A stretch of DNA of 64,000 bases, taken from contig WHVA01000118.1 of the NCBI GenBank assembly GCA_015179125.1, forward strand, positions 62,001 through 126,000, read 5' to 3'. The notes beneath the pieces are model-generated. The model worked only from the letters and a program-made list of their open reading frames with translations, did not search any database and was not told the origin of the DNA. This DNA is from Gautieria morchelliformis. Lineage: Eukaryota > Basidiomycota > Agaricomycetes > Gomphales > Gomphaceae. The first letter of the stretch is position 1. Every line of letters starts with the position of its first letter. Below, one piece after another: positions 1,856-55,508 of this stretch. Position numbers and translations under genes: made by a program.

Positions 1856-4367
1856 CTACTGGGTCGAATGCGAAAGTTGCTTAATCTTAAGGATGATAGC
1901 TAGCAAGGCAAGCTTGTCACCAGGGGAAAATTGCGCACGGCGAGCGAAGACTTACACTGAGGATCCAAGCCCTGGTGGGGAATCTGTTCCTGCAACCCTC
2001 CACATCCTGAAGGCCAATCAGCACCATATGTACACCACATAGAATATACGTACCTTCCTTGTTCGTACCCATGTAACCATATTTGGGGGTCAGCTGGCGC
2101 TCAAGCAACCATGATCCAAACTTGGAACCAACCTTAGGGGAAGCGTGTCAGTCTCTAGGCGGTCAATAGTAGACTTGGCTCTCACCCCGGTCTTCTGGTT
2201 GAGCGATTCAACGACCAGCACGAAGGGAGTCGTGCCGACCTTGCGAATAACATCCTCGTCCACGATATTGAGGGTCGGCTTGTTAACGAGGCCAACGTCC
2301 AAGCCCAGTTCTCTGCATCTGAGCACCGCATCGTACGACCTATGTAGCATGTCTCCGAAAGATACAACATAACCTGCCTTCCCCTCGACGATCACTTCAT
2401 CTTTGCCCGGAACGAACTTATAACCATCACCGAAGAACTTGGTCTTGCCGTCCGCTTTTAGGATCCAAGGCACCTTGGAACGTGTAGAAAATACAAAGCG
2501 CATTCCCCGCTCGAAGAATACTCGGTCGATGACAGCGTCCATCTGTGCCGCATCAGCGGGGAAATATAGCCAGGACTCGACATCTGCCAGGCCGTTGTCG
2601 GCGAACATGGCGTTTACACCGAAGTGCTGCCCAGAATGCAAAAAGGATCAGATATACTACCATCACCCTGAGGCTAGAACACATACGCAAGTGTTGTCAG
2701 CCATTTCGTCGACACCCGAATGTGAGAAGTGGACAAGAAGATTGCAGTTGTTCAACCGAGCCATGGTGATCTCGGATATAGTCATTTCCTAGGGATGGTT
2801 CTCAGATCGGAAAGATTGCGTGTGGACATTTTTACTTTCACTTACCAAGAACGCCTGGAACGTAGAGGCCACACCTGTACGGCATAACTTAGCCTGGCGA
2901 GATTTCGCTCAGAACCACTTAACCTTACCGAACTTGTCCTTGTCAAACCCAAATCCTGCGGCGGCAGAAAGATTTCCGCGCTCCATGATTCCGGAAGGTA
3001 CGAACACCTCGGGATGCTTCTGGTGGATAACCTTAAGACCCGTCGAGCCTTCCAAATCACCTGTGATCACTGATGTGAGCGTCCGCACCGCGTGCGCAAC
3101 GTCTACGCAACGCACTGTCAATGACCATAACCTTCTTCGCGGCTGCCTCCTTTCCAATTTTGTCGAGTACACGTGAGACAGCCTCGCCAAACTCAACACG
3201 ATTGGCGCCCTTGTCCTTGGAGGAACCCTTGTGAATGTATGAAACGCTTGTGGGTTTGATATTCTGCAGGATCGCGCCGACCGCGGCTGGGTATCCGCGG
3301 CTGGTGAGATACTTAATGGCAATATTAACTGGGATGACATCGTGTCCATGGTTGCTACCCTCGAGACCCTCGATGCCGGGGCACATTTTGCGCTTCACGA
3401 TCACTGTCGGAATACAATAGATTCACGTCCAACCAAGAAATGACAATGACAACTGACCTGCTGTAGGACCATCATGACGGATGGAGGCGGCAATGTTCTT
3501 CCATAGGTCGTCAATGTTCTCGCCGTCGGCAACGAAGACAGTCAAGCCATGGCCGGTCAAAGTTTTTCCTACGTCATAGCCTTTCTCGTACTGCGAAGGA
3601 TGACCGGCAATGGTGACGTCATTGTCGTCAATGAGAAGCTTGACATTGAGATCTTGTGCAACGGCGAGACGGGCAGCTTCGGCGTCGTTGCCCTCTTGCT
3701 GTGACCCGTCCGAACCGAGGCAGAAGACGATCTTGTCGCGATTTGCCATGGCAACTCCATTAACGAGGGGCCACATGTGGCCAAGACGGCCAGAACTGAA
3801 CTTGACACCGGGGGTAAGACCGAGTTCAGGGTGACCAGGAAGCTGGGAGTGCGCTTCACGGTAATGCAGGAGGTGTTCGGCAGGAATGTCGCCGTGTAGG
3901 GCAGAAAGAATGTACTGTGTTGCGACACGGTGGCCTGTAGTACCGAGTGAACAAACGATGCAAGCAAGGGGAAATAGCTCACCGGCTTCGTCAAAGTGGA
4001 TGGGGACATATTTGTCGGAGTGGTTGAAGAGAGATTCGAGAATGACTACCTCTGGCACGGTGTCGTAAGGACCACCCGTGTGGCCAGTTACGCCACGGGC
4101 AGCGCCTGTGAGGATGTGTTCAGTGGGCGACAGTTGCACTATCGAGAAAGCGGCATACCGGTCGCTGTGAAAAGAACGATGGCATCTCTGAGTAGCTGGA
4201 TGTTGGCGAGAAGTTTGGACCTTTGCTCTCCAGTGAGCTTGTCCAGGGACGGGTCAAGCTGAATACTGGCAAGCGCCGCGCTGTCACTGGGGGTCGCAAG
4301 GGCTACGCAGCTGAAAGGCTTACTCTTGGAACTGTTTGAGGTCGATGGGGAACGCAGAGTCGGCCAT
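1856..4367 (-). CDS. Transketolase-family protein (second, divergent type)
   Basis: A complete transketolase-family gene of about 670-690 residues with many short introns. The start MADSAFPIDLKQFQE joins to LDPSLDKLTGEQRSKLL, then AARGVTGHTGGPYDTVPEV. The thiamine-diphosphate region GSDGSQQEGNDAEAARLA...DDND is present, as are SSGRLGHMWPLVNGVA, the pyrimidine domain VEFGEAVSRVLDKIG, GIMERGNLSAAAGFG and the C-terminal domain VSFGDMLHRSYDAVLRCREL. The final exon is rebuilt as IPHQGLDPQSIILKIKQL and ends at a TAG. It lacks the N-terminal NTIRALA signature of the neighbouring gene, so the two are different subfamilies rather than a recent duplication. The reaction and substrate are inferred only from family membership; ketose-phosphate transfer is likely but the exact substrate is unknown. 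It is transcribed away from the FHIP gene, across a 332-bp shared promoter region. Confidence 0.88.
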
Positions 4368-4699: not shown

Positions 4700-7600
4700 A
4701 TGGAGTACTTTAGCAAGTTCCTGCGGGCAGGCACCCCACAGCAGCCAAAGCTCGCCCACGACCATGTCCAGGAGTTTCACAGGTCGTGGCAGCTCATAAA
4801 GGTTCTTAGCTCGTTCTCCCAGTCGAGTTCCCCGTCGAGCTGTTCTCTCCCCAGAACACACTCCAGTATCCAGATGAGAGACAGCTCACAAGGGGCATCG
4901 TCTCCACAGACGTCCCAGCCCATCTCAAGCTGATGGTTGACGCTTTGGTCTGGGAGTCCACTCGCTCCAACGAAGGGTATGTCGTCTTTCATATCACATC
5001 GCCGTAGTTTGCGTCAATACCGCTGCAGGACGACCGGTCAGTGTCTAGAATACCTCCTCAAGAATGGTGCGTATTCTCTCTCTCCCAATATGCTCTTGCC
5101 CCCAATACATTGCCAAAGATGTTCTTGGTCACCTCGTCCGCCTCAGCGAGCCCGACCGGCCCTTCGGCATCCAAGCAGAGGTCCTCCGAGCTGTAGCCAA
5201 CATGGTCGTCCTCCTGGACGAGCAGTTTCTCGTGCATTCCGCTGTGCACAAGGCCGTCCTCCGTCTCTTGAGAGGCTGTGTCGGTGATCAGATCGAGGAG
5301 CAGGTCGATGGTCGTGCGAAGCCTATGGGTGCCGCTAGCAACGCCGCCCGCAGCACGCCCTCGGAGTATGAGGAGGATCGTGAGTATCGTGACTTCTTTA
5401 TCCTGCCTGCTCATGATCTCACGTCAACCAGTTGTCGATCTTCTCTGCATCTTGTGCAGTCGAATACGAAACTACCGCGAACTGCTCATGATTTTCTTCC
5501 ACGACAAGCACTGGTTTCAGTCTCAGTTACAGACGGTACAAGAGGTGGACGAGGAAGACGATGAGGACGAACCCGACGAGAAGCCTGAGGACGGTCCTGG
5601 TTCTCAGCGCATCCCGTCCCCCACGCCTTCTCAAGTCACCATCACTTCTGCTCCTCCCTCATCCCACAAAAAGACAGAGTATGAATTCCTCCTCTTTAAT
5701 TATCTCCTCCGATTCGTCCATCGAGAAGGTCGCATTGGCGACTTCGCACGTGCTGGTCTCTTGTTCCTCATGGACGTCGCCATGTCTGCTGGCGAGCCCA
5801 CTCAACACAAACTCGTGGACGATGACGATTCATACACCACTACTAACTCGGATACTTCGGCTTCGGATCCCGTCGCAGACGCGGCTCTTGCGCTTGCCGA
5901 ATACGTCCTCGACGGCGATTTTTCAGAAGTCCTTGGTGCAGGCCTCGGAGCTGTGTATTCTCTGCTACCTTCGAAACTTGATGTCCGCCTCGATACTACT
6001 TCCAGTGGCGGCGCAGTCCAAGGCACCAACAGCGGCATGACACTGGGGGCGGCTGTCTTTGGCACCGACGAAGAGAAACAACGCATCGAGTTTGAACGTG
6101 AGCGCAGTCGTGCCCTGGGCCTGGAAAACTCTTCTAGCCCAGAGTTCAAAGCACGCCTCGACCACTTCCTCAAGCTGCTCGAATTCCTCAGAGACGTCAT
6201 TCGCCGCAATATTTCCACGGACCCGCAACCACAACTAGCACCATCTGCGCTCGTTGGCACCGCGATTGTGCAGTCGATATTGCATGCCGTGAGGTCGGTG
6301 TTTCTCGAAAACATACTCTACACTTCTATTCTTGAGTGCTCGGATGCGGACGGCAGTTCCGTGGCAGTCATGTCATACATCGACATCATGATCCGCACGT
6401 TGGCAGATAGTCAGCTTGCAGACATGCTTGTTGATTTTCTTATGAGCGAAGACGACCACGATGCCCACCGACCGCATCCTCGCATGCTAGCTCTCGACGG
6501 CGAGGGTCGCATAGGGAAGAAGGCGCGTGAGAGGGCAAACAAGATCCGTCGCCGGAAGAGCAGCGCAATGGTGCTTCTCGAGATGGAAGCCCCCGATTCA
6601 CGCAAGCAGACCGAGTATTTCACCTCCCTAGGCCGTTTCACGCTCAAAGACCTCATATTCTCCAACCTCCGCTCCCCATATCAACCTTCCGCCACTGCTG
6701 CTTTCCAGTTACTACAGTCATTGCTTATTCATCATTCTACTGTGTGTATCGATAAACTCCTGGTCGCGGTTCGTGACGCAGATGCAACCAGTTTTCCCCA
6801 GCCTCCACGTTTACCTGAGCCACAGCCACCCTCGTCGCCTTCCTCTGATGACGACGTATTTGTATATCCCGAAGCGGAGCCTGAGCTGCCTATCACGGAA
6901 GTATCTATCTTCAAGTCGCCTGACATAACATTCGCCATGCATGAGCGCGAAATGGACATGTATCTCTCCCTAATCTCGCGTATGTGTCCCTCGAAGGATC
7001 ATGGCTCCTTCAGCACGGGCTATGGCCACTACCTAAATGATGCAATAGTGCTAATTCAGTCTCAGAGCTCGTTTCGCGACGGCATCCTCGCTGAACGGAC
7101 AGCCTCGACGTGGTCATCGCATCATCGTTTGGATCCCAACGATCCATTGCTTGCCGTTCTTCTCAAATCCTTTCGCAGCTTTTTCTCTCACAGTCCCGAA
7201 TACAACGTTGCGTTGACCGGCGTGCTCGCGGCCCTCGCATTAGACCCGTACCGATCGTTGGCGGGCTGGCTGACTTTCGACAATCCAAAATTAGAGGCGC
7301 CGTCTGACCAAACGCTTTCCTTTTCGGAAGTCGATGACGGCGACGATCGCTCCGTCGATTTCAACCTCGCAGACCGAACATCATCTTCAGACAATCCCAA
7401 TCTCCTCGCTATGCCTCTGAACGAGAGCATGCGGCCTGTTCTATACTCGGTATTGCATGGGCTGGTCTCACAGCTAGATCGTTACCGTGCGCAGGTCGAA
7501 AACTTTGACAAATACCTCCTTGAGCGACGTCAAGGGCTTCTATTTTCAGAGAATCTCAATGACGCACTTACTCTTGCACTGGAACTAGCCGATGATAAGT

Positions 7601-8094
7601 CCCCACCGGCACGGCCACCGTCAACTCCCACCCGTCCAAAACCAAAGAGCAAGGGTTCTTCTCTCGTATCGTTTCTCACCCCCAAGAAAAAAACTGCTTC
7701 ACCTCGAGACCCACCGACACCGTCCGAACCAAGCACTCCGCCTCGGGGCAAAGTCATTGCTGCGAGCCCTTTCGGCCCCCACTACCAAGAGACAGGAGCT
7801 ATTGCCATCCAGCCTCTCGTTGTGCCGTTACCTGCCACAGGGCCATGGTCGCCCTCAAAGAAACCCCAGTGGTCCGCAGCTGATGAGGATGTTTTCACGG
7901 CAGGTGCCCAGTGGGGCGATGAAACACCAGATCGCGTACCCGAGCCCAACGAAGAGTCGGGACCCGCCGTGACCAAGGTGACGCTGTCGCAGCTACTGGA
8001 CAATGTTGTTATCCTTGAAGAAAGTATCAAGGAACTTACTGCAACTGTACATGCACGGCGGAGCTTGGGGATCGATGCTATTCGCTATGTATAA
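4700..8094 (+). CDS. FHIP family protein (FTS-Hook-interacting protein, RAI16-like)
   Basis: Four short introns join the N-terminal exons (MEYFSKFLRAG..., HDHVQEFHRSWQLIK, DALVWESTRSNEG, VLGHLVRLSEPDRPFGIQ) to one long exon. The helical FHIP core is recognised from RNYRELLMIFFHDKHWF and YEFLLFNYLLRFVHREGRIG followed by DFARAGLLFLMDVAM. An acidic linker (EEDDEDEPDEKPEDG) lies inside the N-terminal half, and a long proline/serine-rich low-complexity stretch precedes the C-terminus. FHIP proteins bind FTS and Hook and tether early endosomes to dynein; the fungal counterpart acts in endosome motility along hyphae. Length is about 1,080 residues. Start and stop are well supported, since each splice restores one reading frame. 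It ends 60 bp from the convergent P450 gene, so the two 3' ends probably overlap as transcripts. Confidence 0.88.
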
Positions 8095-16139: not shown

Positions 16140-17797
16140 TTATGCTTTTGGGTCCTTTGACGTCCAGTATTCATCTTTGGATACACACTGTCGTGCGATT
16201 TCAAGCTGGAATGTGTGTTGGTGTACAGCAGAGCTACAATAACAATAATCAGACACACCTCTTCGTTTGTCTTGCACACCAATGTGCGTGGCTGTCGTAC
16301 TCCTTGACCAATATCGAATATCACATCCTCGCCCTGCCCCCCCTCGCCCTGGCCCACTTTCATGTTCATCGTCTCTGAGATATGGTCCATGCCGAGACAG
16401 GCGCAACGTTGGATTACCGCGCGCCTTAGCTCAGGTGAATTTTCACCCAAGCCACCCGAGAACACAACTGCGTCCAAACGACCTGTGACGAATGGGAGGT
16501 CGATCTCCGGGAAGCAAATGAATGAACATACCTTCGAGCTGCACGAAGTACCCACCTGTGCATGGCAATAAATCACGCTCAATCAGATTCTCAAAACGAG
16601 AGTTACATACCAACAAACTGACAGACCCGATCAACAAGTATGTCGAAAGCTAGCCGATGAGACTCCTTCCTGGACGTTGCAATTTCATGAAAGTCCGTAG
16701 TTCCTGTCAACGCCTTCCAACCAGCTTCTGTATTAAGGATCTTCTCGGCCTGTATGTGCAACAGGCTGAGTGATACGTGGGATGCTAGGCGGTAATGTGT
16801 TGCTCTACCTCGGTAATGTGCATGTTCCTTGTCCTTTCGTGACTCATCCGACCAACACCTTGAGCACCCGCTGCTAGCGTATAGTGAAATATGAGGCTAG
16901 GGTCAATATCCCCTGAGCGTGTGGCTCCGGGGAGTCCAGAAAGGGGCGTAAGACCCATGGACGTGTTGACAGATTTCCCACCGCGAATTGCACAAACTGA
17001 AGCACCCGATCCCAAGTGGAGCGCAATGAGACAAACTTCTGAGGTAGGTTTCTTCAGATATTCCCCCACAGAGCGAAGAATGAAGGAATCTGCTAAACCA
17101 GTTAGGAAACAACCCAAACAGAGGGATTCTTCAAGCTTACAGCTAAAGCCGTGAAAACCATACTTCCTTAAATTTTTTTCGTTGGCAACAGCGGGGGATA
17201 TGGGGTACGTATAGACATCGGGTAGAAGGGTTCGGTGGAAAGTAGAATCGAAGAATGCGATAGACTGGGCGTTGGGAAGTAAATCACGACAAGCTTTTAT
17301 AACAGAAAGGGCCCTATTGTTATGTCTGATATGCCAGTGGATGAGAAGCCTATCATAGAGGAAATTGAGACCACGCACAATGGCGCGAGATCCGAGAGCG
17401 CTTGGAGACGTTCGTACGTAGACTTCTCCACGATGACTGAGTCTGCAAATTGACCGCCATGGACGATACGGTGGCAGATGTGTGTTATCTCATGGCGTCC
17501 ATAGCCTGACTTCAGAAATTCTTGGTCGGAGAACAGCGCTCGCAGGAAGTGTTCAAAGGCCGCTGCGTGGTCACTGATAGAGGTGGGTAGATCGAGGCGT
17601 TTGGGGAGAGGAGACGTGGCCAAGGAATAGGAAAATTTAGAATTAGATGTGCCAATGTCTGAGACCGACGAAGTGGCAAGGAGTGAAACAGGCTCTTGTT
17701 TAGGCTTCAAGTCCTTTCGGTTTACGAGGAGTATAAAAAGAGAAAGCTTCAGTGAGGAAGAGCCCGCGTTGACGGCAAGAATAAGATGAGAAGACAT
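16140..17797 (-). CDS. Acetate kinase
   Basis: Interconverts acetyl phosphate plus ADP with acetate plus ATP. The start MSSHLILAVNAGSSSLKLSLF carries the Asn of the family's N-terminal motif. CHRIVHGGQF holds the conserved Arg, LAPLHNNRAL the His, FFDSTFHRTL the catalytic Asp, LHLGSGASVCAIRGGKSVNT the phosphate-binding region and TRSGDIDPSL the second Arg. FSGGLGENSPELRRAV and the C-terminal TNEELEIARQC follow. Every residue usually assigned to catalysis is therefore visible. About 425 residues, the normal length; the stop is a TAA reached after a final intron ending CATTCCAG. The gene is head to head with phosphoketolase, its expected acetyl-phosphate supplier. Acetate kinase is uncommon in eukaryotes but is known from filamentous ascomycetes and basidiomycetes such as Cryptococcus. 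Confidence 0.95.
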
Positions 17798-31823: not shown

Positions 31824-34800
31824 ATGTCCGAGCGTACTATAGAGGAACTTGTGACAGCATGGCTAAGCTTGGACAAGGTGCAGTGATTCTAGCCCGGCCT
31901 TTTTCGTGTGTACAAAGTTCACTAGTAGATCCTTAATAAAGGAGGAGGTGACGAGGCGGGAGATTCAAGAGCTTTGGAACAACAGTAATATCCCAGAGCT
32001 TGAAAGTCGGCTCCGGTGAGCCCTCTGCCAGATTTGCGTCACTCGTCCCTTCTGATTGTCTCTTCGCGAGCCTGGCAGGCAGAGAATAGAATTTGGCACG
32101 GCAGATAAGCAACACATATGGTAGGCATGCAGAGGCCATTTACATGATATTCGTACAGCACGACTCCGAGGTCGCATGGAGGCGGGCTTTTCCCGTATGA
32201 ATAGTCTCATTGTTATCCAAGCCTCGCAAGTCAGTCAAATGTACGATTGAACTTCCTGTCTATAATGTGAACCCCAGGGTCTCGCTGCCTATGCGTTGCA
32301 TAACGTTTCAGAGGCGCAAAATAGGGGTGTGGTTGTTGGTTAGTTTAAGGGAGCATCAAATCGACTGTTTTGAACCTCTCTGTCCTCCTTTTTTCTCTAG
32401 GTCATGACCATCGTCATAACTCAGAACATTGGGCGAAGCTGACTGCGGCCGCATTCTTGAGCTTTGGATTTAATGTTTACTTACTCGATGGCCTTGTGCA
32501 CACACCTCTGTGAGTAATGTTTGCGCTTTGCGCTCATTTCTTCATTACATCTGTATGTCAGTGTGCCTTTTAGCGTCTCAAAACTCGGAGCAGCGTGCGG
32601 AGTAATGATCACAGGTGGATCGGCTTACTTTCAAATGTCACTCGTTTCCGAATACATGTCTGCCAGCTAGTCATAATCCCAAAGATGACAATGGGTACAA
32701 GGTTTATTGGGAAAATGCAGTCCAGGTGCGCGCCTCTTGTGTGCGAGTCTGGGCATATATTCCAGCTGCTATGATTTCAGATTATTGGCCCCCATGATCG
32801 CGGTATTGCGGACGCCATCAAGAATAATCTGAAACCCCGTGTGTGGGGTATGCAGGAATTTACAACGTCGCCACTTCTTCATGACGTAACGGAGAAATTG
32901 CGGATCGCTTATTTTTCCTATCTGCAAGGTCTGAGTCACTCAAGGTACGTTTTAAAGGTGGCTTTTGACCACTCTAAACCCTATCAACAGGGATCAGAAC
33001 CTTTCCACAAGCGTCAAATTTGTTAGCACTGCAATGCATGGCGTGGGACATGTTTATGCTGCTAGGGCATTCGAAGTGTTTGGCTTTCCTGCGTTCACCC
33101 CTGTGGAAGATCAGAAGGATCCAGACCCGGACTTTCCGACGGTGAGGTTTCCTAACCCCGAAGAGAAAGGTAGGGTCAGCCATCTGAGTCAAATGGTATC
33201 ATCTAATTTCTCACCTTCCCAGGTGCACTCGTCCGTAACACATCCTTAGTTTATCTAGCAATTCTTCGAACATGTTGGTATTCGCAGGATCTCGCTCTTG
33301 AAGCAGCTGATCAAGTACATGCGGACTATGTTCTGGCACAAGATCCGGACGCTGACAGATTCACAGCTGCTGAGAGAACGTTTGTATTCGTATGTCCATT
33401 TTGTCATTCAGTTCATTGATCCCACGCACAGTCCAGATGGAACATGGAAAATATTTACGGGAGATATGTTGGGCGCAATTTTTGCAGCTCGCACGCTCGA
33501 GGTTAGTTCCAGTCCGATTGAATGTTTTTGGCATGTTCGAATGACCACGCCCTAGTTGTATCGAACTTCCGGAAAAGCTATAAGTAAGTCCAGTATCCCT
33601 GTAACTTTTGAATTTTTTAATATATATCTTTTGGAGACGCGTTGGCGATGGTAGCCTCGACGGTCAGCTCTAAGATGCTTGAAGCTATGGCGAAAACGGA
33701 AGGCTTCAAATTTGCCGAATGTCTCACTGGTCTGGTTTTTTCCGTCCCTGGGGTAATACGCTCTCAGACAAGTTAGGGCACAGGATTTAAGTATATCGGC
33801 AATACGGCACTGGACCTGGTGAACGATGGCTACGAGGTATATGCCATCCTCCTACTGAAACGATAATGTGCCGGAACGATAAGCGACAGGTACCATTCGC
33901 TTACGAGGAGGCCATCGGGTTTATGATAGGCTCGAATATTCGTGATAAGGACGGAATCGCCGCGACTGTATGTATATCCTGCTCCTGCTTGGTTAGTAAT
34001 CAAGGACACCCATCGTTTCCCAGGTCTTCTTCGCAGAATTAGCGGCAGATCTACACCGAAAAGACTCGACGGTTGCTCAATATCTCTCACAGCTATATTC
34101 CAGGCATGTATGTAGTACACCTCAGCGATTAAAAGTTAACAACAATTTTTCATTAGATATGGCTTTTTCCAGGTATGACAAGCAATTTCAACGTACCGTC
34201 CCGACGACTCACCATATATCTAGACGTGCAATAGTTACTTCATATGTAGGTCTCCCTCGACAATTGATCGCATCTTCACGAGGTTGAGAAACTACACTCC
34301 AGAGGTTTGTGAACATTCTTTGTCTTTTGTCAGTCATAAGTGTCATATTTTGGAGTCAGGCGCAGCATAGAAAGTATCCTCGCGAGATAGGAGCAATGAG
34401 TATTGTATGGGTTCGAGACTTAACGAACGGGTATGACAGTGCCAACCCACCGACGTATGCGCCAAGTTTGCCTTTGTCTTCTGGACACATGATCCAATTT
34501 CGCGCGGAATCCGAGTCTCGTACATCTATCATGCTTACTCTGAGGTGTGTCAGCCTTACTTGGATTCGCTATGTCTCATCTCACTTCCTTTCACAGAACC
34601 AGCGGGACCGAACCAAAGGTACAGAGCCAGCTTACACACCCTGGTATTAGGCTGATGTTCATGGTTGCTGCCAGATCAAGTACTACCTAGAAGGACATGG
34701 CCATGACCCCACAGATGTCCAAGCAACACTCGCGCGAGTCATAGACGTATTGACCAACGAATGGGTAGAAGCGGCGCAAAATGATCTGATACTGCCATGA
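31824..34800 (+). CDS. Phosphopentomutase/phosphoglucomutase (PGM2/Prm15 type)
   Basis: Interconverts ribose-1-P and ribose-5-P (and glucose-1-P and glucose-6-P), linking nucleoside salvage to the pentose phosphate pathway. The start [18 protein letters not shown] joins [20 protein letters not shown] and [20 protein letters not shown]. The catalytic serine loop is [20 protein letters not shown], the metal-binding loop [15 protein letters not shown], the sugar-binding loop [14 protein letters not shown] and the phosphate-binding loop [15 protein letters not shown]. It ends AAQNDLILP and TGA. These motifs match the PGM2/Prm15 subfamily rather than the usual PGM1 type. The gene is extremely intron-rich (roughly twenty), leaving about 600 residues. 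One intron needs the non-canonical AT-AC pair (32105-32161). Confidence 0.92.
32105..32161 (+). other. Apparent AT-AC intron in the phosphopentomutase gene
   Basis: The intron runs from ATAAGC to GTACAGCAC and is 57 nt long, the normal size here. Splicing at these ends yields exactly EFGTA-GLRGRM, the invariant family motif. No GT donor is available. Using the AG three bases earlier keeps the frame but inserts an extra residue into the motif. The donor CAG/ATAAGC resembles the rare U2-type AT-AC class, not the U12 consensus ATATCC. Confidence 0.65.
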
Positions 34801-35054
34801 ATACCATACCACTAGCCTGGATGGACACTTGCAACGACAGCTTACTCACTGGCTGAGCCTTTATTCTAGGTGTAAATTTCATTTTGCTTACTAAAAGTAC
34901 ACAAATAGCAAAATTGTGCTTTGGAAAAATTTAGTAACATACAACAACTTTCAAACACAAAACGTCGCTCTGGTTCAAACATTCAATCTAGTTGGCTACC
35001 CGTCGAATCTCTGACTTTAAGCTGCAGAGATGAATACGTATTGAATCAGGGCCA

Positions 35055-36503
35055 ATGCCTTCCGAGTTGAGCTATTCAATCTCGGCAGCCCTTCGAGCAC
35101 CTGCCCTCATGTCAACTATCTGGGCTGCATGCAGCTCCTTGGCCCTTGGATTAGCCCTCCTCTACATTTGTCTCCTTTCTCTTACAATACCACACCGGTC
35201 TTTAGTTTATGTTCGCCTGGCTATCGCACCTAAGGCCATACTCTACTTTTGGGACTTTGGATATGGATCGTACGAGCCACCGACGCTGTTTATCTCTTCG
35301 GCAATGGCAGCTGTTGGGATATACGGTATAATGCGAGTGTTTGAGCACTCCGTCGTCAGCTTATGGGGCCCTGGCCCCCCCCATTGGGTCGCACGCGCTG
35401 GAAAAAATGGATCGCGTCCCCCGTATTCTCATCCCCAGTCCTTTGGAGAACGTTGCTTTTATGCTTTTGATCTCCTTACCTCTCTGAGGGGTGCGAGCTG
35501 GTCCACAAACCGAGAATGGAACTGGTTACCGCGTCGTTTTCATTCATGGGCTCCCCCACCGTCCGGGCAGTTTGTGAAGGCCGGTATTAAAGCCATGCTC
35601 ATCCAATACCTACTGTTAGACCTACTCGACACGATCTTCAGGTCCCGCAGCTGGGATACAACGTCCCGATACCCAGTATCGTCACTGTCTGTACTGGAGC
35701 AATCGGTATTCCCAATGTGTATTTGTGGCGGAATATTTCTTGTGATCGATCTCGCCTACACGACGCTATCGACAGTGTGTGTCCTGTGCGGTTCAAGTCC
35801 TGATTCATGGCCACCCATGTTTCATTCACCATTCTCGTGCACGTCCTTGAGTGATTTTTGGGCCCATCGTTGGCACTGGGTGTTTCGCCGTGTTTTCGAC
35901 CGACTGTCGATCCCATTCGTGTGCATCATGGCGTCTATGCTCCGTCTCACTGGCAAAGGTGTTCGCCAAAAGGAGCACATCGTTACAGTCACGCGTACCG
36001 TCATTATATTTGCGCTGTCAACCTTGCTTCATCTAATCGTCCTGTATCGAGCCACGCAAACAGCATATCGCAAGAACTATGGAACGGAATTTCCTCGGTT
36101 TTGGGATATTGACTTGCTACTGTTTTTCATGGGTCAACCAGTGGGATTATTCTTCGAATCTGCGGTTATAATCCCTATCGCAAATTGGATGTTCCCTTCG
36201 AAAGAACAGCCCCGGAGCCCCCAGAAAGCGTCACCCACACACTCCTCGATGTATTCGTCCTCGGGCTCACAGTCCAATGATAAACAAGCCGGAACGACAG
36301 GCGCCCTCGAGTCCGATGCAAGCCTTAGGGGACATCGTTGGGAGCGAGTGGCCTTAATGCGTATGTGTACTTGGGCTTTCCTTATCTGGACAGGTCGATG
36401 GGGGACCGACAAGTGGGTGCGCATTGGTTTCTTCGACGAGAATGAGATGGTAGTACCGTTCAGCGTATGGAGAGGCGTATGGCGTGGAAAATGGAAAATA
36501 TAG
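35055..36503 (+). CDS. Wax-synthase-like membrane acyltransferase (MBOAT_2)
   Basis: A single-exon protein of 482 residues with about seven to eight predicted membrane helices. Examples are WAACSSLALGLALLYICLLS near residue 25, LFISSAMAAVGIYGIM near 80, MCICGGIFLVIDLAYTTLST near 220, TVIIFALSTLLHLIVLYRAT near 320 and PVGLFFESAVIIPIANWMF near 365. The family signature SLSDFWAHRWHWVFRRVFDR, with its conserved WHRW-like core, is clear, as is TNREWNWLPRRF. Members transfer acyl groups to alcohols in the endoplasmic reticulum; in mushrooms the family is expanded and often lies near terpene genes. Substrate is unknown and no terpene synthase is seen here. A serine-rich loop (SPTHSSMYSSSGSQSND) interrupts the helices near residue 400. 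Confidence 0.85.
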   Translation: MPSELSYSISAALRAPALMSTIWAACSSLALGLALLYICLLSLTIPHRSLVYVRLAIAPKAILYFWDFGYGSYEPPTLFISSAMAAVGIYGIMRVFEHSVVSLWGPGPPHWVARAGKNGSRPPYSHPQSFGERCFYAFDLLTSLRGASWSTNREWNWLPRRFHSWAPPPSGQFVKAGIKAMLIQYLLLDLLDTIFRSRSWDTTSRYPVSSLSVLEQSVFPMCICGGIFLVIDLAYTTLSTVCVLCGSSPDSWPPMFHSPFSCTSLSDFWAHRWHWVFRRVFDRLSIPFVCIMASMLRLTGKGVRQKEHIVTVTRTVIIFALSTLLHLIVLYRATQTAYRKNYGTEFPRFWDIDLLLFFMGQPVGLFFESAVIIPIANWMFPSKEQPRSPQKASPTHSSMYSSSGSQSNDKQAGTTGALESDASLRGHRWERVALMRMCTWAFLIWTGRWGTDKWVRIGFFDENEMVVPFSVWRGVWRGKWKI

Positions 36504-46437: not shown

Positions 46438-49400
46438 ATGAAATTCATCGATGGATTCTGGCTGCTCAAGGACGGTGTCCGACCTTTCTATGGTCTCCAA
46501 GTCGTGAACACAAGTGTAGATCGTGATGGTAATGCCGTGGATATTCAAGTATCGACACGCCCCATTAGGCATCGTGGAGACACATTAGGGGGTAAGAATC
46601 CATTCTGGAGATTGTCATGGCTGGTCTTTACCTGAGCCTGAAGGCCCATTGCTGAGCGTGCGCCTGCACGCACCTACCCAGGGTGTCATAGGCGTCAGAA
46701 TAGATCATTTCAAGGTGAATTTGTATATAGTTTGTTCTCGGATAGCACTAAGTTCGAGCCAGGCTTCAGTACCGTCGCCTTCTATCGAGATGTTCCCCAC
46801 AAACCCGCCAGTTTCCTCGGAGACCACCATGAACGCGTCTCCCGATTCACTTTTCTTTGGCACTGGTGGTCTTAGTGCTGAGATCACACAGAATCCGTAT
46901 ACTATCACGTTCAAATCAGCTCAACGAACTTTGACTTTGGCGGGACCCAAGCATCAAGCCCTTGTTGAAGTACCACATCAATGGACGTTAAATTCAGCCT
47001 CAGAGTCTTCCTGCCTGTCCACGGATCGTTCCTCCAATCCAGGTCCTGGTATTCCTCCTAAGTCTGTGCGCTACATGCTCTCAGAACTCAACATCTCCCC
47101 TGGAGAAAACATTTATGGCCTGGGAGAACAGTTCGGAGCCTTCGTCAAGAATGGCATGCCACTTTCCCGTCCCAATGATGTTTAGACCTAATCTACTTCA
47201 ATATCTCCAGGACAATCGATTAGTGTGTGGAACCGAGACGGTGGCACTTCCAGCGAACAATGTTACAAGTGTGTTCCTTTCTATATTTCGTCGCGCGGAT
47301 ACGGTGTCTTCATCAATCACCCCGGCGAAGTCGAAGTCGAAGTTGGTAGTGAGAAGGTGTGTTCGTCCATTCAAGATGTTTGCCTCAACTTTACCAGGCT
47401 TCCTCAGGTAAGCCGGGTGGGTGTAAGTGTTGCCGGGGAAGGCCTGGAATATTTCTTGATTTACGGCGAAACGCCGCTTGAAGTATGTCGTTGTTCTAAA
47501 TTAATGGCGCAGACTATTTATTGTGTTCAAGATACTTGAGAGATACACTCTTCTAACGGGTCGCCCAGCGTACGTTTGACAGGCATGCACTATGTTAAAT
47601 GCTTCGATGATTTTCCAGTCTTCCGCCGACTTGGACATTTGGCCTGTGGTTGTCGACCTCCTTCTTGACAAATTATTCTAGCTCAACGGTTTCTGGATTC
47701 TTGCAAGGAATGCAGGAGCGAAACTGCAACGTCCGAGTCTTCCATTTGGACTGTTTTTGGATGAAGCAATACGAGTAAGTTCAGTGGAACCACGTCACAT
47801 TCTCTAATTCCACTGTTGCGTAGATGGTGCTCTTTCACGTTTGATCCAGATAACTTTCCCGATCCCGCTGCTTACCTTTCGGAAATTAAATCGAAATACG
47901 GAGTGAAAATCTGTGTGTGGAGTTGCGTTGTTTTAGCACTCGTCGTTCAGACATAATGCTCACCTCAGCTCACGATTCGGCATTCAGTTAACCCCTATAT
48001 TTCACAGCACTCACCGGTTTTTGAGGAAGCCCTTCAAAGCAATTATTTGATAAAACGTACCAACGGTCAGGTTTGGCAATGGGATTTGTGGCAGCCTGGC
48101 CTCGCTATATTCGATGTGACCAATCCCTCAGCTAGAGAGTGGTATAGTATGAAGCTGCATAAGCTTATTGACCTCGGTGTGGATTGCTTTAAGGTATTTA
48201 TGTAGCTGTATCGTTTGCATCAAAGTACTCATGGGAGGAACAAAAATCACACAGACGGACTTTGGCGAGAGAATTCCTCATGTCAACATTGATTATTACG
48301 ACGGTTCAGATCCATATCGGATGCATAATCAATACTCAGTGCTGTACAACGAACTAGTATTCAAACTTCTCGAACACCGCTTTGGTAAAAATGAAGCCGT
48401 AGTGTTCGCTCGTGCTTCAGCTGCTGGTGGCCAGAGGTCCGTCTTGACTTTTTACTCTCCATAGCCTGCGCTTAGTGGGCTGGTCAGATTCCCTGTGGCA
48501 AGTTGGCCTTCCACTTGCGCAATATATGTTTTGCACTCATTAACATGATGTAGCACTGGGGTGGCGACTGCGAATCCACATTTGAAGCCATGGCGGAAAC
48601 TCTTCGAGGAGGACTTAGCTTGACACTATCAGGCTTTGCCTTTACCTCTCATGACATTGGAGGCTTCGAGGTTTGACATCTGCAGTTAAATATGATCATC
48701 GAGGTTTATCCCACATTCAGGGATTACCCCTCCCGAGGTCTACTTGCGATGGGTAGCTTATGGCCTTTTCTCTTCACACTCCCGGTTGCATGGCTCGCAT
48801 TCCTATCGTAAGCTGATACAGGCCCTTATTCCCATACAGAGCTAATATCAATGTTAAGGTGTTCCTTGGGAATATGGCGAGGAGGCCCCGAAAGTACTCG
48901 CCAAATACTTGGAGGCCAAACATCGCTTGATGCCTTACATATACTTCCACGCAATACAAGCCCATATACTTGGACATCCTTTGCAGCGTGCGATGTGGCT
49001 TGAATTTGTCGACGATCGTACAACACATTATCTTGACCGGCAATTCATGTTAGGCCCTTGCATGCTTGTCGCTCCAGTGTTTGTGCCTTCATCCGAGGAA
49101 ACGGAATACTACTTGCCCTCAGGAGTATGGACGTCATTCTGGTCCAATCGGACAGTCGAAGGGCCGAAGTGGGTGAGAGAAAGGGTAGCGCTTGATGACA
49201 TTCCTGTCTGGGTAAGGCCTGGAACCATTTTAGTTCTAGGGCCTCTGGGTACCACAAAACCCGATTACGAGTACACCAAGAACTTAGAAGTGAGGATATA
49301 CGAAATCGGAGAGGGACAATTGGTACAGTTCTTCGTTCCAAGCGGCAATGGCGCTGAAATTGCCGGGATCATCTGCGCTCGACGAGACAGTGGCGAGCTA

Positions 49401-49562
49401 AAGATTTGGGTCGCAAAGGGTCCTTTGACTATTACCTCGATTCATATATTTGCCGAAGATTTACCAAAGATTAGGAGAGTTGTGGGAGCAAAACAACGGT
49501 CTGGAGAGGGAGGGAAGTTTGATGTGGACACTGGGACGCTAGAAGTTACCATTCAAACCTAA
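46438..49562 (+). CDS. GH31 alpha-xylosidase (YicI type), with an apparent frame break
   Basis: Removes alpha-linked xylose from xyloglucan oligosaccharides or isoprimeverose. The N-terminus [20 protein letters not shown] and [10 protein letters not shown] match the YicI beta-sandwich domain. The barrel contains [58 protein letters not shown] (nucleophile Asp), [11 protein letters not shown] (general acid), [16 protein letters not shown] and SHDIGGFE. The C-terminal domains follow ([18 protein letters not shown]). About 820 residues would be expected. At the start of the exon beginning 48721 the CCCC run at 48727-48730 is one base too short: the family sequence [20 protein letters not shown] lies in the next frame. 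So the gene is either a very young pseudogene or has an assembly error. It has no obvious signal peptide, consistent with an intracellular enzyme. Confidence 0.88.
47154..47210 (+). other. Non-canonical GC-AG intron in the alpha-xylosidase gene
   Basis: A 57-nt intron with donor AATG/GCATGC and acceptor ATCTCCAG joins FGAFVKNG to [11 protein letters not shown], the expected GH31 sequence. A later GT alternative would leave a 31-nt intron and break the frame. Confidence 0.65.
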
Positions 49563-53132: not shown

Positions 53133-55508
53133 CTACACCGAATGTGCCAGGACACACCATTGTACCGGGGAAAATCCATTCGACTGCCTGTCTGCCACCC
53201 CCGAATCCTTCCGCCACATGTCAACATCACACAACCCATGTCCTTCGCCATTATTCATCAACAGCTGCTCATCCAGGTAACTTGACACTCCGGTATACAC
53301 GCCCTCGCCAGAGAAGACCGAATCAGGCATGATCACTTCTGACGGATAGAACGAGAGCTCCCGCGCGTGCATTTCTGCCCCAGAATCATCTACCTCACGG
53401 ACCAAGGGAGATCTTCTAACATCGAAGGTTGTGTATTTTGAGTGGTTCGTAGTTGATGGCGCAAGGAGGGGTGAGAGTTCGCGGGAGGAAGACCGAAACG
53501 AGCCGGAGCTGTCGCTTGCCCCATCGTCGAGAAAGTTATGGGGGAGGAGCCATGCAGGGCTGCTATTAGGGGTGGGAAACATATCGAGGGCTGAGACGCA
53601 TATTTGAATTTCCGGTAGGGAGGAGGCTGATAATCACAACTTACATGAGGAAGCGGACAGTTGCATATCATCAGCCAGGTTTCCTCCATGTCGATCCAGA
53701 ATATTATCAAACGTCGCAGCACCACCCCAAGTCGCTGACAGTCGCACCAGGGCTTCCTTGCACTTGCCGAGGAAAGTGTCACTCCATTGTCTGGCGAGCA
53801 TACTCGAATGAGGTGATGTCATTGATCTCCCAGCTGATCCCGCGTGAGTGTCGCTCTCCGCAATAAACGTACGACACGCGACTAGTATGGGAAGATCCAT
53901 GAACGGATCACTAAGTGCCTCAGGAGCCACGTTTTCAACGGTGATGAGAGTATCCGCCAGCGATTTAGCACTGGTTCGCGCAGCAATCGCACGCGGTCCA
54001 TCCGCTGGAACAGGTAGGCCATACGCGGGGAGCAACGAAGGGCGATTGAGAAGCGCGCTCAAGGCGTGCATTAAAATGTGCATCTGCACAAAGCAATGCC
54101 CCATTTGTCGGTCGCACATGGCTACCAAATTGTCCTCGTTAAACAACATGGTCGCTGGAAGAGATTTCGACAAGTTCTCGAGGTCCGTCTGCAGTTTTGA
54201 GAGGTCCCAGTCGAGTGACGAGTCACCCTGATTCTCGACGTGAGCGTCAAGGACCCGGCTTAACCTTCCACGAAGAACACAAAGGCCTGCGATGTTACGC
54301 AACAGTAAAGACATGTCATCTGTTGGCTCAGGGAGTCTAGTGTCATATTGATCCAGGTCAAGTATTGCTGGGCGACCTGTAACCCATGACGCAGCAATAT
54401 CCGCAGTGCATACGACCATCCACCACGTAAGGCGTAGGCGTTGGCGGACCTCGGGAGTGGCTGCCACCTGAATGGTAGCCTCATTCCCCAGGCCAAGATC
54501 GAGACACATGGTAATGGCCATACGCGAATACATCCAGAAACCATCGTCATCCCCAGAGCCGTATTCCGCCCATGTAATGCAATTCAACGCATGGAGGGCC
54601 TCGACGCTCGGGACGGAGGTGACATGGGACGCCAGAGACTTTGCCATGTCATAAAATGGTGCACTTGCAGCAAAGTCAGGTTGTAAGGGATTGGCGAAGC
54701 GAATTGCCAGGCCAGCAATGCAATTCGACAAAATCGCTGAGCAAGTTCGTTGCTCGATCCGATGCAACACATCATATCGGTCGAGGAATGGGAAATACGG
54801 ACCAACACGGTCAAAAAACACGGCTCCTAGCTGGCGCATACGATAGGGGTGCGGAAAGCGCGGTCGATTCGGGTCGAATAAGGGGAGCTGATCATAAGAG
54901 ACGCATTTCATATCATTACCCTGCGCATGCACTGCCGTCTGGGGGAAGACGTTGATCTCGTGTGTGAAGGATGGGCCAGCACGCTGCTCCGAATGAACAT
55001 ACCTGAAAAAGGTGTGAGATTGATACATGCAAATGGAGGCCAGACAAACCGATCGTTTGAACGAAACCCGCCTGCGGGCGTGACAGATCGTGAGTTTTCG
55101 GTAGAGCTGGACTGAGAATTAGATCTCAAGAGCGAAGGCGGGGGCGCTGGGTACGGAGCGTGGGTCATTTTGCGTTTCCGAGATGAGCTTTCTGGTAAAT
55201 CAGCAGGAATCTCCTCGACAGTCGTGCTCCATGTACAGGTAACACCCCTCTCTGCTTGGTAGCGGTCACGGTCACCAAAGAGACAGGGAATTTTAGCTGC
55301 TTTGCAGGCGTCACAGCGACTATTCGGTACGGGCTGCTGGCACTTTATCTTTTTGACACGACTGAGAGCTCCTGTCAGATTATGCGGACGCAGTGCTGAA
55401 GAGCACATACCAGGAGTCGCATGCAGTAACTAAACGAGCACGCTTCCTGTGTTTGTTGTTAGAGGCATTGGGATGAGGGTTTTCGAGAATGAAGCGAAAT
55501 CCGTCCAT
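53133..55508 (-). CDS. Zn2Cys6 fungal-specific transcription factor (second)
   Basis: The rebuilt start MDGFRFILENPHPNASNNKH leads to RKRARLVTACDSC joined over an intron to RVKKIKCQQPVPNSRCDACK and AAKIPCLFGDRDRYQAERG. This gives all six cysteines of the zinc cluster. The long exon holds the Fungal_trans domain: MRQLGAVFFDRVGPYFPFLD, VPSVEALHALNCITWAEYGS, SRMAITMCLDLGLGNEATIQ, RLRLTWWMVVCTADIAASWV and TGRPAILDLDQYDTRLPEP. The last exon (LDMFPTPNSSPAWLLPHNFL) is acidic and serine-rich, as in activation regions. About 720 residues. Its targets are unknown; resemblance of the middle region to xylanase-type activators is suggestive, not proof. It lies two genes away from the alpha-xylosidase. Confidence 0.88.

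Follow-up and report, generated by a model that had tools for sequence, protein, structure and literature searches.

A probable U2-type AT-AC intron in a phosphopentomutase-type gene of Gautieria morchelliformis

We identified an intron with AT-AC ends at positions 32105–32161 of the window, the whole 64,000-nt stretch of DNA that was analysed, in a gene that probably encodes a phosphopentomutase. Judged from the DNA and the encoded protein, the mutase gene almost certainly holds a real AT-AC intron, and we consider it very probable that this spliceosomal intron is taken out by the major (U2) spliceosome.

The mutase gene and its surroundings

The intron interrupts a phosphopentomutase-type (PGM2-like) alpha-D-phosphohexomutase gene at 31824–34800 (+), for which a model hand-built from exon anchors has 23 exons and encodes 592 amino acids with a stop at the end. 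Its 22 introns are 46–64 nt long and comprise GT-AG (n = 20), GC-AG (n = 1), and AT-AC (n = 1) types. Pfam searches on pieces of the gene recovered the domains PGM_PMM_I and PGM_PMM_II, and the translation contains TASHNP, DPDADR, YEEAIGF, and TSGTEPK, which we take to be the active-site motifs of the alpha-D-phosphohexomutase superfamily; domains and active-site motifs together place the protein in this superfamily. The best 80 of 295 relatives are bacterial and share 34–40% identity with it over most of its length, and none of the seven NCBIfam models that matched reached its own cut-off. The name phosphopentomutase (PGM2/phosphoribomutase type) is therefore a probable assignment from Pfam domains and bacterial relatives, and the pentose phosphate substrate is presumably that of the family name. 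The features around the intron are as follows:

32079–32104 (+), exon 3, 26 nt, ending ...EFGTA+G, phase 1
32102–32110 (+), donor CAG/ATAAGC, matching the U2-type consensus CAG/GTAAGT at seven of nine positions, with G at +5
32105–32161 (+), AT-AC intron, 57 nt, ATAAGC...CAGCAC, phase 1
32122–32124 (+), in-frame TAG, met upon intron retention
32140–32148 (+), two weak candidates for the branch point by motif match, TTAC with its A at 32142 and TGAT with its A at 32147
32157–32158 (+), AG of a CAG, 3 nt upstream of the AC end, which if used would give TAARLRGRM
32160–32161 (+), AC acceptor, from the window sequence and the gene model
32162–32229 (+), exon 4, starting GA CTC CGA GGT CGC, which completes G and continues with L-R-G-R
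34104–34156 (+), GC-AG intron of the same gene, CAG/GCATGT...TTAG

A DNA search of the assembly matched this locus alone, with no second copy and no allele free of the AT-AC intron; further PGM_PMM_I matches lie on two other contigs. Occurrence at a single place in the assembly would also suit a decaying gene, whose unusual intron ends would be a loss-of-function mutation. We consider such decay extremely unlikely, given that neither the 21 other introns nor any of the 23 exons is damaged and that the four motifs named above are present; moreover, a lone mutation would not also produce the matching AC.

Among the neighbouring genes, the ten longest of 92 open reading frames were scanned with Pfam, three of them without a match. 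The Pfam assignments obtained were:

3426–4253 (-), transketolase N-terminal
5272–8091 (+), RAI16-like
16788–17489 (-), acetate kinase
35034–36500 (+), MBOAT_2
46589–47182 and 48858–49559 (+), glycosyl hydrolase 31
53637–55118 (-), Fungal_trans, which together with the short introns marks the DNA as fungal

Intron boundaries and motif conservation

The exon-intron edges at 32105–32161 on the forward strand read ...GGCACGGCAG/ATAAGCAACAC...GTACAGCAC/GACTCCGAGG..., or in a second rendering ...GGCACGGCAG/ATAAGCAACACATATGG...TTCGTACAGCAC/GACTCCGAGGTCGC.... We enumerated all excisions of at least 20 nt with a donor between 32080 and 32159 and an end no later than 32229 that kept the frame and contained no stop (n = 1508), and only one of them, 32105–32161, restored GTAGLRGR. 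Unlike bases at its two edges prevent this excision from being shifted, and since g32162 is the middle base of the Gly codon, the intron has to end at c32161. AT...AC ends occur by chance in 0.38% and ATAAG...AC in 0.0098% of the 61,047 segments of 45–65 nt in the mutase gene; unlike such segments, the intron ends at 32105–32161 were set by the protein and not picked. Spliced in this way, the protein scored 125.8 bits against Pfam PGM_PMM_I, and seven alternative excisions scored 114.7 (AT-AG), 113.1, 106.9, 111.0, 115.5, 115.0, and 114.7 bits. The sole stop-free GT-AG alternative in the tried range (32121–32204) deletes the motif, and GC-AG alternatives either lose GTAG or leave residues extra or missing.

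Relatives of the mutase were sought in genome contigs with peptide patterns that exclude the motif, and their ranking used the protein in its AT-AC-joined form as the query; the 80 kept, all bacterial by title and mostly from actinobacteria, inform on the conservation of the protein and not on the intron. In the translated and aligned sequences of these best 80 of 295, the F, G, T, A, G, R, and G of FGTAGxRG are each present in 80/80 and free of gaps, including the Gly that only the AC end restores. The remaining positions vary among the same bacterial relatives (E in 62/80, L in 71/80, second R in 6/80, M in 3/80), so that the sequence-only reading, which had called EFGTAGLRGRM invariant, was right about the core FGTAGxRG and overstated the rest. 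Among solved distant relatives the Gly is kept in three of five alignments (FGTEGFRG, FGTDGVRG), and the other two start past the motif. A scan of viral contigs yielded no mutase relatives. The same reading had proposed a 57-nt AT-AC intron running from ATAAGC to CAGCAC at 32105–32161, and in this it is upheld by the single restoring excision out of 1508, the best Pfam score, and the conservation of the motif.

The nearest alternative is an AT-AG intron of 54 nt that combines the same AT donor with the CAG ending at 32158 and yields TAARLRGRM, one residue longer. This would use a CAG acceptor, keep the frame, and avoid stops; yet it drops a Gly found in 80/80 relatives, adds a residue to a gap-free motif, and lowers the PGM_PMM_I score from 125.8 to 114.7 bits. 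Against it also stands the contact made by the first intron nucleotide with the last, which according to Parker and Siliciano reportedly prefers A with C. In Ganoderma lingzhi AT-AG introns (21; 0.023%) outnumber AT-AC introns (13) (PMC11590231; papers are cited here by PMC number), which speaks for the AT-AG form, but on balance we regard it as improbable. The in-frame CAG ending at 32158 could nevertheless be used part of the time.

A sequencing or assembly error that disguises a true GT-AG intron is less probable still. A single change would make the donor GTAAGC, but an error at 32105 alone was rejected because the motif still fails: with G at 32105, the CAG acceptor ending at 32158 again gives TAARLRGRM, with the 80/80 Gly lost and a residue added. 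A second change, at 32161, would thus be needed, and another ATAAG...AC candidate exists elsewhere in the assembly.

Donor, branch point, and spliceosome type

With seven of nine positions matching the U2-type consensus, the donor of the AT-AC intron is the joint best among the 22 donors of the mutase gene. The candidate branch-point As lie 19 nt (32142) and 14 nt (32147) before the intron end; a full yTRAy match is missing here, as it is in most other introns of the gene. A U12-type AT-AC intron processed by the minor spliceosome would share the AT-AC ends and could have phase 1, and its consensus branch site TTCCTTRAY has a best match of 7/9 (TTACATGAT), whose A lies 14 nt upstream of the intron end. 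By itself this match would favour the U12 type, but it says little, because 6 of the 21 other mutase introns also reach at least 7/9. The U12 donor consensus RTATCCTT is not recognizable: ATAAGCAA agrees with ATATCCTT at 4/8 positions, three of which are the initial ATA, and carries G at +5, and the GT introns of the gene agree with GTATCCTT at 2–5 of 8 positions.

Spliceosomal RNAs were searched with Rfam models and cut-offs in the 122-Mb assembly (1113 contigs). No U11, U12, U4atac, or U6atac scored over the cut-off; the U1 model was likewise blank, and the minor snRNA negatives are therefore moderate evidence of absence. Hits over the cut-off were obtained for U2 (at least 20), U4 (at least 9), and U6 (n = 2), with functional copies and pseudogenes counted together; such numbers of U2 and U4 loci are high for a fungus. 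One U6 copy, read in sense direction, contains ACAGAG. All four sub-threshold U4atac hits overlap U4 genes, as do 2 of 11 sub-threshold U6atac hits with U6 genes.

Some fungi outside Dikarya retain the minor spliceosome, and in the same survey neither Ascomycota nor Basidiomycota have minor introns (PMC10639083). Basidiomycota also appear without minor introns in the survey of PMC2846911, and minor snRNA genes were detected in one fungus, Cutaneotrichosporon oleaginosum, according to PMC7072748. U12-type AT-AC introns thus resemble the mutase intron in their ends and differ in having a ATATCCTT donor, a distinctive branch site, and minor snRNAs over the cut-off, all of which are lacking here. 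Taken with the 4/8 donor, the G at +5, the undistinctive branch match, and the blank minor snRNA searches (in which U1 was missed too), a U12-type intron is scarcely credible, and 32105–32161 is most likely U2-type. The suggestion made from the letters alone, that the donor resembles those of AT-AC introns handled by the major spliceosome, agrees with this assignment.

U2-type (type II) AT-AC introns are best compared with those of sodium channel genes, e.g. SCN4A intron 21, which are processed by the major spliceosome and share with the mutase intron the AT-AC ends and G at +5, the latter being present in all of them (PMC2831892). In contrast to these, the intron described here is fungal, 57 nt long, located in a sugar-phosphate mutase gene, and equipped with a CAG 3 nt before the AC.

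From the sequence, the unique excision, and the fit to the conserved motif, which are observed, we infer use in vivo and the following course of splicing by the major spliceosome. U1 and then U6 would read the donor via the intact positions -3 to -1 and +2 to +5 (CAG/ATAAG), and branching would occur on an A near 32142 or 32147. In the second step A1 of the intron would make a non-Watson-Crick contact with the C at the last position, and it is presumably because of this first-last base contact that the CAG at 32158, three bases upstream, would be skipped for the AC at 32161; the product would be an intact EFGTAGLRGRM. Yeast lacks a minor spliceosome, and there the efficiency of AT-AC is exceeded only by that of GT-AG (PMC6726248, citing Parker and Siliciano); structures of the human P complex are compatible with the first intron base contacting the last (PMC6461851).

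AT-AC introns in fungi and a second candidate

AT-AC introns make up 0.019% of introns in fungal annotations (PMC7072748) and 0.03% in SnowyOwl models of three fungi (PMC4084796). In the Agaricomycetes, Ganoderma lingzhi has 13 (0.014%), of which one is shown with Sanger confirmation (PMC11590231), and in Coriolopsis trogii they account for 0.0235% and belong to the five types examined by PCR and sequencing (PMC13395996). Two AT-AC introns of the basidiomycete Phakopsora pachyrhizi were not classed as U12 (PMC2846911). The sequence-only reading had described such introns as rarely reported in fungi; their low frequency (0.019%) bears this out, but they had already been Sanger-confirmed in Ganoderma and tested by PCR and sequencing in Coriolopsis. 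Since AT-AC introns are already known in fungi, the mutase intron adds to a known rare kind, and it resembles those of G. lingzhi and C. trogii in being a rare AT-AC intron in a fungal coding gene. The available parts of these two papers name no phosphopentomutase among their cases. A search with exact terms in the literature library used found no AT-AC intron in phosphopentomutase, and a search for one in DNA polymerase delta, in a narrow wording that missed the Ganoderma paper ("AT-AC splicing sites"), likewise found none.

The polymerase delta gene was inspected because Sanger sequencing had confirmed an AT-AC intron of G. lingzhi in a gene bearing zf-C4pol, a domain of polymerase delta (PMC11590231). 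In G. morchelliformis this gene (locus L110) contains a candidate AT-AC intron of 60 nt in phase 1 at L110:2072-2131 (G000:C804:100471-100530), with the edges GAG/ATAAGT...ATCCAC/GTG. The segment is in frame and stop-free, so that it could also be retained. Its removal gives PKARGVFERETFQF, and the join is gap-free relative to yeast polymerase delta; four solved polymerase delta sequences show no gap at the junction, the human one being gapped a few residues later. Scores were higher for the spliced than for the retained form, both for the best match (3iay; 38.4 vs 22.2 bits) and for the human protein (26.3 vs 16.1 bits). None of the three GT-AG excisions listed at this site achieves the same join.

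Excisions of 60 nt starting anywhere from 2070 to 2074 are equally gap-free, varying in a single unconserved residue. Protein comparison sets the length of 60 nt and the rough register of the candidate, not the exact base, and among these starts AT-AC was chosen because it alone has known splice ends. A pattern scan of L110 gave 11 matches, with 8.6 expected, and the match at the needed junction was picked; the same pattern gave 11 matches, with 8.8 expected, at a second zf-C4pol gene (L111). The zf-C4pol end of the polymerase delta gene has three introns, all GT-AG by eye; the distance from there upstream to the AT-AC candidate is about 3.4 kb. The Ganoderma zf-C4pol gene may correspond to the gene at either L110 or L111. 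As a putative AT-AC intron, the polymerase delta segment is a weaker candidate than that of the mutase gene.

Both introns have phase 1 and ATAAG donors, and with the zf-C4pol AT-AC intron of Ganoderma these features are the basis for a broader, rather doubtful idea: that the mutase and polymerase delta introns are old and fixed in position across mushroom fungi, former minor introns that would have moved to the major spliceosome via G at +5 and then become locked in as AT-AC upon loss of the minor spliceosome.

The evidence that the protein provides at both ends, the CAGCAC arrangement, and the second candidate would lift the mutase intron slightly above the routine. Both its ends are fixed to the base by protein conservation, an in-frame CAG lies 3 nt ahead of the AC, and the CAGCAC arrangement offers a natural test of the rule that A1 of an intron selects C at the last position. 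A gene finder that accepts only GT-AG and GC-AG introns would disrupt or truncate this intact mutase. Together with the polymerase delta candidate, the mutase intron points to a group of fungal U2-type AT-AC introns that may be long-lived and that can be checked.
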